A stretch of DNA of 42,253 nucleotides from assembly GCF_000981225.1 (NCBI RefSeq), contig NZ_LAJC01000054.1, forward strand, positions 1-42,253, read 5' to 3'. A model generated the notes under the pieces. That model did not search any database. It saw only the letters and a program-made list of their open reading frames with translations, and had not been told where the DNA came from. Position numbers and translations under genes: made by a program. Origin of the DNA: Allosalinactinospora lopnorensis. GTDB taxonomy: Bacteria > Actinomycetota > Actinomycetes > Streptosporangiales > Streptosporangiaceae. Below, piece by piece: positions 31,322 through 33,797 of the stretch; within the stretch, counting starts at the first letter, position 1; each line of letters starts with the position of its first letter.

Positions 31322-31395
31322 CGGGACGTAGCGCAGTTTGGTAGCGCACTTGACTGGGGGTCAAGGGGTCGTGGGTTCAAATCCCGCCGTCCCGA
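31322..31395 (+). tRNA. tRNA-Pro, anticodon GGG
   Basis: Full cloverleaf: acceptor CGGGACG (31322-31328) with CGTCCCG (31388-31394), discriminator A31395, D arm with TTGG, anticodon stem CTTGA/TCAAG around loop CTGGGGG (anticodon 31356-31358), T loop GTTCAAAT. CCA is not encoded. A transcript terminator follows. It flanks an integrase-bearing segment, as tRNA genes used for integration do. Confidence 0.95.
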
Positions 31396-31412
31396 CAGAG
31401 GAACAAGCAGCT

Positions 31413-31449
31413 CAGAAGGGGTGCCATCCGATGGATGGCACCCCTTCTG
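31413..31449 (+). terminator. Terminator of the tRNA-Pro transcript
   Basis: Perfect 17-base arms (31413-31429 and 31433-31449) with a 3-base loop, starting 18 bases after the tRNA end. The stem ends in CCCCTTCTG, a weak T region. Confidence 0.85.
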
Positions 31450-31610
31450 GCGTTGTGGGAGCCAAACGGGGTCCCTACGTCACTCGCCGGCGGCTGCACC
31501 GCCCCTACTCGCTCGGCCGGAAGTATCATGCTCGGCCTTCCTCACGCGCCCCCGAGCTGTCGCAGCGGTGCCCTAGGTTCAATGTCTCCCCCCATCCGCA
31601 GAGGAGCCGC

Positions 31611-32792
31611 ATGGGCATTAAGGACCTGACCGACCGCACCGCCGTCCTGCACGCTCTCGCGCGCTACGACGAGTTTGGACGCGACGCCTTCCTAGAGGAA
31701 TCTCAGTTCGGAACGGCCAGGCGCTACTTCCTGCAGCACAACGGAAAGCTGTATGAGGCCAAGGCGATCGCCGGTGTTGCGTACCGAACCCAATTCCCCG
31801 AGCGAAGCCAGGAAGACTTCAGCGGTGGTAAGGAGCACGCGAACGCTCCTATGGAAACCATGGGATTTACCGTGCTAGACCGCGAGACGTCCACGGTCGA
31901 CGAGGAGCGAGTCTGGCGACTCGCCATCTGGAGCCACCTCCGGGCCACCCACAAGGATCTCGACAAGGTGGAGCCAGCGACTCTGCGCGCATTCGGTGCC
32001 TATGGAGGAGCACAAGGCGTCTGGGTTGACACCCAGCGCACGTCCAAATTCTTCACTGAGGGCGTGACCGTTGGCATCCTTCACACGGGAGTGCACTACC
32101 CGGATGAGCTCTCTGAGGACGGCATCTTCTACCACTATCCAGTGACGAAACGTCCCGTCGGGCGGGATCGCAGCGAGGTGGCAGCTACCCAAGCAGCCGG
32201 ATCGCTCCAGCTCCCCATATTCGTCATCACAAAGCCAACCCCTCGTTCGTCCGTGCGCGCCGTGCGACTCGGCTGGGTCGGCGGCTGGGATGACGCCAGT
32301 AAGTTGTTCCTGATCAACTACGGCGACGAACCGCCCGCTTCGCTCATCACCGAGGACCGATCGGATGAAGAGCCCTTTGAGCCCATGGCCACGCGTCAAA
32401 GCAAGAAGCAGCGCGCTGTTACGGAGCGCCCCGATCAGAACCGTTTTAAACTCAGGGTCTTGAAGCGCTATGGCTGGCGTTGTCCGTTGTCGGGAGTGAC
32501 GGTGCCGCAGATGATCGAAGCGGCGCACCTCATCCCACACGCGATGAACGGCACGTCTGATCCCCGTAATGGGTTGCCCCTCAACGTGGCTTTGCACCGG
32601 GCTTTCGATGCGAACCTGTTCGGCATCGATCCGGAGACGTTGGACGTGGTCGTCCCCCGCGATGGCCATTCGCTCGCTGACCTGGGCATCATCACGCCTC
32701 ATCTGCGTGACTTGGCTCAGCTCCCGCACAGAGAAGCGCTGGAGTGGCGCTACAACGAATGGAAGCGCCGTGCCGCGCCACCTGAGGAGTAG
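31611..32792 (+). CDS. HNH endonuclease with ScoMcrA-like N-terminal domain, probable type IV (modification-dependent) restriction enzyme
   Basis: 393 residues. Residues 1-85 match the N-terminal head domain of ScoMcrA-like enzymes: LHALARYDEFGRDAFLEESQ, RRYFLQHNGKLYEAKAIAGV, EDFSGG. Residues about 95-240 form a probable SRA/PUA-like reader of modified bases (VTVGILHTGVHYPDE, IFYHYPVTKRPVGRDRSEVA). Residues 280-370 are an HNH_2 nuclease: RFKLRVLKRYGWRCPLSGV, EAAHLIPHAMNGTSDPRNGL, LHRAFDANLFGID, with the HNH histidine and asparagine residues visible. No methylase partner is adjacent, which fits a type IV system against foreign modified DNA. GAGGAG precedes ATG 31611. The gene has more A/T-ending codons than its neighbours, a sign of recent transfer. 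The middle-domain assignment is the weakest part. Confidence 0.8.
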   Translation: MGIKDLTDRTAVLHALARYDEFGRDAFLEESQFGTARRYFLQHNGKLYEAKAIAGVAYRTQFPERSQEDFSGGKEHANAPMETMGFTVLDRETSTVDEERVWRLAIWSHLRATHKDLDKVEPATLRAFGAYGGAQGVWVDTQRTSKFFTEGVTVGILHTGVHYPDELSEDGIFYHYPVTKRPVGRDRSEVAATQAAGSLQLPIFVITKPTPRSSVRAVRLGWVGGWDDASKLFLINYGDEPPASLITEDRSDEEPFEPMATRQSKKQRAVTERPDQNRFKLRVLKRYGWRCPLSGVTVPQMIEAAHLIPHAMNGTSDPRNGLPLNVALHRAFDANLFGIDPETLDVVVPRDGHSLADLGIITPHLRDLAQLPHREALEWRYNEWKRRAAPPEE

Positions 32793-32816
32793 CAATGGCA
32801 CGGCGCCCCGCGATGG

Positions 32817-33797
32817 CTAGTCGAAGATGCCATCCATGGCTTCGGCGCCGCCGGTGATAACAGGCCGGATCTGCTTGCGGTAGACGGCCTCGGTGACTGA
32901 CGTTCCGCTGTGGCCGACCAGCCGGGCGATGTCCTCCAGCGGCACACCAGAGTCCGACATCAGCGAGACGAAGCTGTGCCGTAACTCCCGCGGCGTCCAC
33001 TCTTTTGGCGTCAGGCCGGCGCGCTTGACCACGCGGCGGAAGTCTCGGCGGACGTTGTGCGCGTCCAGTTCGGTGCCGACCTTCGAGGTGAACACCAGGT
33101 CGGTGGCCTGCCACGCCTTCCCCGCGGCGCGGCGTTCGGCCACCTGGCGGCTGCGTTGCACGCGCAGCGCCACCACGCAGCGCCTCGGCAGTGCCAGCGT
33201 GCGGCGGGAGCGGCGCGTCTTGGTGTCGCCGCCGGCGCGTACCGAGCGCCATACGGCGATGTAGGGCGTATCGCCGGACAGTTCCACGTGATCCCAGGTG
33301 AGCACCCGCAGTCCTTCGGTGCGCGCCCCGATCAAAAACGACAGCACCACATAGGCGTAGAGCCGGAATTCCTCGGCGGCGGCCAGCAGTGCCCTGGCCT
33401 GAGCTAGCGTGAGCGCCTTCGAGGGGCGCCCCGCGGCTTTTCCCTCGGGCACGTCGCACAGCGCCACCACATTGCGCTTCACCTTGTCGCGCGCCTGGGC
33501 GTGCTTCACTGCGTGGTTGAGAATCGAATACAGCAGGCGCAGCGTGCGCGTGCTCAGTTCCTCGGACTTGTCATCAAGCCAGCCGTCCACATCATCGGCC
33601 CGCAATTCGCGCAGCTTGTAGCTACCCAATGCGGGGATTATGTGCTTTTCCGCCAGCATCCGGTAGTTGTCGACGGTGCCCGAGTCGCGTCCACGTAGGC
33701 CGCTCTTCAGCCACGCATACACGGCGTCGGCGACCGTGTAACGGGTGGGCTCGGCCGGAAGACCGTCCGATGTTCTGTTGTCCTGTCCGCGGGTCAT
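32817..33797 (-). CDS. Tyrosine-family integrase, N-terminally truncated
   Basis: 326 residues. Core-binding domain (TVADAVYAWLKSGLRGRDSG, LAEKHIIPALGSYKLREL) and catalytic domain: Arg in LIGARTEGLRVLTWDHVEL, WTPRELRHSFVSLMSDSGVP, LVGHSGTSVTEAVYRKQ with the nucleophilic Tyr. Box II reads R-E-L-R where H-x-x-R is usual; this is also my recollection of relatives. Complete actinomycete relatives carry about 80-100 more N-terminal residues for arm binding; here the frame starts at ATG 33797, without a ribosome site, 14 bases after the methyltransferase stop. It converges on the HNH gene with a 24-base gap. No excisionase is seen. Confidence 0.85.
   Translation of the reverse strand: MTRGQDNRTSDGLPAEPTRYTVADAVYAWLKSGLRGRDSGTVDNYRMLAEKHIIPALGSYKLRELRADDVDGWLDDKSEELSTRTLRLLYSILNHAVKHAQARDKVKRNVVALCDVPEGKAAGRPSKALTLAQARALLAAAEEFRLYAYVVLSFLIGARTEGLRVLTWDHVELSGDTPYIAVWRSVRAGGDTKTRRSRRTLALPRRCVVALRVQRSRQVAERRAAGKAWQATDLVFTSKVGTELDAHNVRRDFRRVVKRAGLTPKEWTPRELRHSFVSLMSDSGVPLEDIARLVGHSGTSVTEAVYRKQIRPVITGGAEAMDGIFD

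Follow-up and report, generated by a model that had tools for sequence, protein, structure and literature searches.

The tRNA-Pro locus and its truncated integrase

The window analysed here is the whole of a 42,253-nt contig (C54, NZ_LAJC01000054.1) from the 5.89-Mb, 220-contig genome of Allosalinactinospora lopnorensis, and our subject is the segment from 31322 to about 33785, in which a tRNA-Pro(GGG) gene is followed by a gene for an HNH endonuclease and by a truncated tyrosine integrase gene (int). The initial annotation had pointed to this tRNA gene, to an HNH gene of lower GC and to an integrase without its N-terminal part, and all of these are present. GC is 0.616 in the HNH gene, 0.667 in the integrase gene and 0.696 in the window, and third-codon-position GC is 0.73 in the HNH open reading frame (as called from 31338) versus 0.92 in the Der gene. 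The features are as follows.

31322..31396, plus strand: tRNA-Pro(GGG) gene (ARAGORN); host attachment gene, with its 3′ part the presumed attachment (att) core
31413..31449, no strand: hairpin beside the tRNA gene, 17-bp perfect stem and 3-nt loop, read from the letters
31457..31476, minus strand: paired 8-bp arm-like repeats with a 12-bp period, presumed integrase arm sites, 60 bp from the tRNA gene
31611..32792, plus strand: HNH endonuclease gene, 393 aa; ATG start at 31611, stop at 32790-32792
32765..32806, no strand: inverted repeat (GCGCCGTGCC / GGCACGGCGC) spanning the HNH stop codon, read from the letters
32817..33797, minus strand: truncated tyrosine integrase gene, 326 aa, with Phage_int_SAM_3 and Phage_integrase domains; stop at 32817-32819
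33771..33790, no strand: junction of integrase and methyltransferase flank, from alignment ends; exact point uncertain
33794..34408, minus strand: methyltransferase pseudogene, three single-base gaps relative to G037 and G007

The state of the integrase was judged against relatives from a search of 341 genomes of the family, 152 of which had a match at E 1e-75 or better. We worked with 83 loci, 80 fetched from the top of the match list (lower rows were omitted) together with L086, L087 and L088; G222 and G320 were excluded for an incomplete match or a contig end. This set is ranked by similarity rather than random, its loci are not independent, and the initial scoring took six candidates per genome, so that some integrases were missed. 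In 70 of the 72 xis-bearing loci the end of xis lies 162-303 bp from the start of similarity to the window integrase (the exceptions are L236 and L219), and because of this spacing the window protein appears to be short of about 55-60 N-terminal residues; an arm-binding N-terminal domain is absent among its Pfam matches. Its box I reads GARTEGLR, with Gly in place of a conserved Glu that is kept in 81 of the 82 relatives whose motif could be located; by eye, the Arg, His and Tyr positions are presumably present. The element has probably lost the ability to excise by its own integrase.

The integrase start codon overlaps the methyltransferase stop codon (ATGA). Similarity to the integrase family spans from codon 10 or 11 (33770) to the stop codon, most relatives' alignments starting at residue 10 or 11, and the methyltransferase flank resembles G037 and G007 from 33785-33786 onward; because the two similarities end there, the junction is placed between these positions or close to them. 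Against this placement, the alignment of the full-length G052 integrase continues to 33878, with few identities past 33770; the same DNA can be aligned with the G037 and G007 methyltransferase, and we take the extension as a probable overextension. Queries for xis, RepSA, GntR and TraB from two relatives (tblastn, E 0.01) gave no match in the window, and because xis, replication and transfer genes were not found the locus is filed as a remnant rather than as an actinomycete integrative and conjugative element (AICE). Among plasmids, 31 records match the window integrase, 24 of them covering 80%, and the best (61.8%) is a record of 11.85 Mb.

Of two features expected of an AICE, a tRNA-adjacent integrase is present and attL/attR direct repeats are absent from the window. 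The earlier statement that no repeat of the tRNA 3′ end lies on the far side was borne out: none occurs in the window when up to 3 of 28 positions may mismatch, the best other ungapped window match to 46 bp of the tRNA 3′ part reaches only 26/46, and a genome-wide search (22-mer, up to 3 mismatches, 220 contigs) returned nine matches, this tRNA and eight inside other tRNA genes. The search for a degenerate downstream copy that had been called for was also run and found nothing. On the tRNA side, the window carries the arm-like repeats AGGGACCC CGTT TGGCTCCC on the minus strand, assigned by position and by comparison with G006 (of a sister genus) and G078; the two copies agree at 5 of 8 positions and are identical to each other in both of those genomes. 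Such paired repeats are likely to be arm sites of the integrase.

A probable slot for cargo genes beside the integrase stop

Relatives of the integrase keep a regular arrangement. In all 72 loci of the 83 that have a tRNA gene within the fetched stretch, the nearest tRNA gene is antisense to int, whose stop faces the tRNA 3′ end, and the gap between the two is two-peaked, 53-90 bp in 50 of the 83 loci and 222-2695 bp in 22; no tRNA was found within the fetched stretch in the other 11. The short-gap loci contain 8-bp repeats with a 12-bp period, AGTCACTC AGTT AGTCACTC and variants of it, which by a strict test begin between positions -14 and +15 relative to the int stop in those short-class loci that the test lists. 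A looser pattern, which also matches 86 of 9960 random 110-bp pieces, places repeats no more than 110 bp from the tRNA gene in 21 of the 22 long-class loci (the exception is L217) and near the int stop in one of the 22, L245, which has both; the same pattern is found in 46 of the 50 short-class loci, where the int and tRNA ranges overlap. The extra DNA of the long-class loci thus sits between the int stop and the repeats, and insertion appears one-sided because the distance from int to xis is nearly constant. G078 shows an empty form of this slot: its integrase tail shares 90% identity over 80 residues with that of the window, it has tRNA-Pro(GGG), a hairpin nearly identical to the window's and paired repeats that are two identical copies of a third variant, and the int stop is separated from the tRNA by 117 bp that hold no cargo.

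The window follows the long-class layout, with the order hairpin, repeats, HNH gene and integrase stop from the tRNA and a tRNA-int gap of 1420 bp, so that the HNH gene appears to occupy the cargo slot between integrase stop and attachment repeats. We therefore read 31322 to about 33785, with a probability of roughly 0.8, as the tRNA-side end of a decayed AICE with the HNH gene in that slot. The element would have integrated at tRNA-Pro(GGG) via a tyrosine integrase binding the paired repeats beside the tRNA, and a compact HNH gene of the ScoMcrA kind would have been loaded between the integrase stop codon and the repeats. A deletion, which we infer to have been a single event, would then have removed the integrase N-terminus, xis, the genes for replication and transfer and the distal attachment site, leaving the rest of the integrase fused to the methyltransferase flank; the element being unable to excise, the HNH enzyme would have been retained as an ordinary host gene. 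On this reading a lone restriction gene between a tRNA gene and a broken integrase is explained, since a tRNA-proximal position can outlast deletion of the rest. The initial annotation had proposed an integrative element shrunken to its defence cargo; its account of a tRNA-Pro element reduced to a defence-type gene and a truncated integrase stands, except that the HNH gene would be no mere remainder, as it sits in the slot.

Several observations weigh against this reading. The degenerate window repeats, at 5 of 8 positions, failed the strict test, which asks for 7 of 8. The hairpin may be the terminator of the tRNA gene itself, and since the tRNA-Pro gene of G023 has a different hairpin and no integrase, the hairpin alone proves little. 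Among the relatives compared, all of them from other genera, no close relative showed an unoccupied tRNA site or a complete element at the locus. Partial-integrase loci lie 45-117 bp from the tRNA gene with no cargo in 12 of 23 cases. Finally, not every long gap can be a clean slot, because transposases or another integrase adjoin int, by eye, in three of the 11 loci without a tRNA (L182, L196 and L235).

Two further ideas were given up. That decayed elements usually keep their cargo was rejected on those same empty slots, and G034 was dropped as a further slot case, its int tail pointing the opposite way. In G034 (L076:5242-8495), two open reading frames lie between tRNA-Pro and that tail, one matching the N-terminal part of Avs2 and the other, weakly, PD-T7-5.

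The HNH enzyme and its history

The HNH protein matches Pfam HNH_2 at residues 291-340 (E 3e-11) and has a plan in which a ScoMcrA-type head (residues ~9-93) and an SRA-like middle part (~99-240) precede the HNH domain, whose H306, N320 and H329 are invariant across 10 sequences. The head is well supported, by phmmer to PDB 5zmm (residues 9-93, E 9.7e-12), by a structure match to ScoMcrA (Z 12.5, 71 residues, root-mean-square deviation 1.2) and by PADLOC mREase_IV, which matches nine of ten homologues in the head part, the tenth being without that part. AlphaFold models, each built from 5 sequences, are weak both for the HNH protein and for its middle part alone, with a mean predicted local confidence (pLDDT) of 56.6 and 55.8. 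In these two low-confidence models the middle part falls on SRA domains with Z up to 6.1, below the caution line of 8, and structural matches are nearly all readers of DNA modification (after the head match, and among the first 13 for the middle model). The middle part has no Pfam match, and hhalign against three SRA-HNH proteins of relatives aligned the HNH part alone and not the middle. With moderate confidence, the protein is predicted to be a short ScoMcrA-like, modification-dependent enzyme, which would presumably cut modified foreign DNA.

Two kinds of known enzyme resemble it. ScoMcrA, an SBD-SRA-HNH type IV enzyme (PMC6224610, PMC7461809), shares the head, the C-terminal HNH domain and, in the weak models, an SRA-like middle; its chain, however, has 561 residues rather than 393, and the ~170 residues between head and HNH in the window protein leave room for one domain, not two. 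TagI-type SRA-HNH enzymes (PMC6212794) likewise combine an SRA-like domain with HNH, and TagI matches the middle part with Z 4.8 and 5.8, but the window protein has an extra head domain.

Relatives of the HNH protein are rare, with matches at E 1e-20 or better in six other genomes of the 341 and at five loci in the genome_contigs collection, one of which is G006 again. Among plasmids, 1121 records match and one covers at least 80% of the query, at 28.6% identity; among phages, none of seven matching records covers 80%. In the sister genus the protein is 81% identical in both G006 and G136. G006 keeps the order tRNA-Pro, hairpin, repeats, HNH; the integrase is gone from the locus, and a transposase gene, which we take to be IS630-like, is inserted at CTAG where int is expected. 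In G136 (L109:9906-11423) the HNH gene ends beside a 61-codon int tail (94% identical DNA), set off from it by a short insertion that has 15-bp inverted ends (GACCTGTTTTGGAAG) and CTAG on both sides, the same CTAG as that of the G006 transposase gene. The initial annotation's view that the remnant had become fixed accordingly applies to the HNH gene and not to the integrase. It had also held that HNH gene and integrase at the same place in distant relatives would speak for vertical descent; half of this was found, the HNH gene lying with tRNA-Pro in another genus without the integrase, and we read it as old retention rather than as absence of an island.

Codon-position identities of 0.88/0.91/0.62 between the window and G006 HNH genes show the pattern of purifying constraint, and, because third-position identity is near that of four core genes (0.61-0.72), the whole gene is consistent with descent since the two genera separated. 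It would thus have been kept long while the element collapsed. Within this average, third-position identity is 0.56 over codons 1-300 and 0.79 over codons 301-394 (against G006) and rises to 0.87 in the int tail (against G136), and such unevenness along 31611-33002 suggests mosaic exchange around the slot.

The same unevenness, together with the rarity of HNH relatives, lends some weight to an alternative in which the gene entered both genera separately by horizontal transfer on related elements, its core-like divergence being chance. This is a possibility worth keeping in view, if a decidedly weaker one: the overall divergence of the gene is near the core level, and the two HNH-bearing genomes of the sister genus (g7) are 96% alike. 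It is improbable, in turn, that the HNH gene is an old vertical gene beside tRNA-Pro and that an AICE later integrated alongside it and decayed, the arrangement being coincidence. The 81% identity in the sister genus, the position beside tRNA-Pro without an integrase in G006 and the core-like third-position identity would all agree with this; yet repeats lie between tRNA and HNH gene in both the window and G006, which places the gene inside the element, G136 retains it joined to the same int tail, and G249, a genome outside the 83, has a 53% identical HNH homologue flanked by a different integrase and tRNA-Tyr. That the HNH gene is of the homing type and moved unaided into the space between att and int we consider very improbable, since, for all that HNH proteins are often mobile and the slots of relatives hold many unrelated genes, an HNH protein was found in only one of 14 scanned slots and the window protein has the head and SRA-like middle of a restriction enzyme.

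Apart from these comparisons, G249 has no perfect 12-bp-period repeat between int and tRNA. In G209 (L113:9124-10014) an internal stop interrupts an HNH homologue that has another integrase and a RepSA-like gene nearby. In G006, 26 kb downstream of tRNA-Pro, 45 bp of the tRNA 3′ part recur (95.6%), adjoining, by eye, pieces of another integrase. In G136, where tRNA-Pro is ~125 kb from the HNH gene on the same strand, the tRNA 3′ part recurs twice between the two genes, once over 68 bp (91%) and once over 44 bp (100%); these copies, at distances of ~26 kb and ~83 kb from tRNA-Pro, resemble an accretion array.

Other occupied slots and the right flank

The cargo of 14 of the 22 loaded loci was scanned, clear open reading frames being chosen and L192, L193, L197, L199, L202, L217, L240 and L245 left out. 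Strong PADLOC defence matches were found in five of the 14:

L183: NaeI and an AspBHI-N/Mrr modification-dependent enzyme
L088: Shedu SduA
L233 and L239: HEC-08/DUF3644 (HEPN proteins)
L086: Hypoth_Ymh, PD-Lambda-3_B

L225 holds the only HNH protein of the 14, with weaker matches. The remaining eight (L185, L198, L213, L246, L207, L250, L241 and L187) have cargo that is unassigned or has no clear defence role; L241 carries a histidine phosphatase, and L187 a helix-turn-helix (HTH) protein whose PADLOC matches are confined to the HTH parts. At most, these raw counts suggest that the slot may be enriched for defence genes.

A decayed element at a tRNA gene is ordinary, and the slot is the interesting part. 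Decaying Streptomyces AICEs with a partial integrase and cargo at the insertion site have been published (PMC9513070), and in the accessible text they share with the window the leftover partial integrase and cargo, accretion, and restriction and abortive-infection cargo; unlike here, direct repeats persist there, and a slot between int stop and repeats is not described in that text. The published psu-int hotspot of P4-like satellites (PMC9122126), as far as its accessible text goes, is similarly a single variable locus beside an integrase that holds differing antiviral systems, but it belongs to an enterobacterial satellite with its cargo between psu and int, whereas here AICE cargo lies between int and repeats. 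No description of a slot between int stop and arm repeats was found in the accessible parts of the literature, including PMC9513070, PMC3218068, PMC11706625 and PMC9122126, with subscription journals mostly outside the search.

Hotspots at a fixed address have proved a rich source of antiviral systems, and P4 satellites are an example (PMC9122126). We propose, at even odds, that the boundary between int stop and arm repeats is a dedicated, exchangeable AICE cargo slot, used by more than one integrase family, often holding single-gene antiviral systems and swapped by recombination between the int 3′ end and the att repeats, such that unknown slot genes would be defence candidates. If this is true, a slot with two sharp borders, the integrase stop and the paired repeats, would offer a simple rule for collecting defence candidates in actinobacteria. 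Proteins of 275 and 287 aa, alike by eye, lie beside int in two genomes, at L185:4021-4845 and L195:5078-5938, that of L185 with a sub-threshold DUF559 match, and are candidates for new defence nucleases. At L181:1848-5351, a locus with no tRNA found within the fetched stretch, an integrase relative is adjoined by a 1168-aa protein that combines nSTAND1 with WD40 repeats and has a weak match to caspase.

On the other side of the window remnant, the initial annotation had taken a chromosomal methyltransferase operon as the border, a view that is not clearly borne out. The gene is broken, with three single-base gaps and an in-frame gap of 12 or 9 bases relative to G037 and G007, and the cluster is 90% identical as DNA in G037, a member of another family whose Der protein is only 65% identical; because of this disparity the right flank is itself a possible newcomer, and the cluster may have been transferred recently. 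The pseudogene adjoins FAD-reductase and XRE-cupin genes. A search of window 33700-42253 in eight relatives placed the cluster elsewhere in G037 and G007; it is not in any fetched tRNA-Pro region of relatives, and the native right flank was not recovered. Other integrase genes follow tRNA-Pro, by eye, in G021, G010 and G030. In G023, of another genus, tRNA-Pro comes after the Der region and the next 7 kb show no integrase, making it a candidate unoccupied site, which does not date the event because its right flank is not common with the window.

Two minor features of the host genome may be added. The inverted repeat at 32765-32806 is possibly a terminator between the convergent HNH and integrase genes. 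Elsewhere in the genome, at C13:63760-66781 (L090), a tRNA-Pro(CGG) gene precedes fragments similar by eye to RepSA and integrase genes, possibly a second decayed AICE of the same genome.

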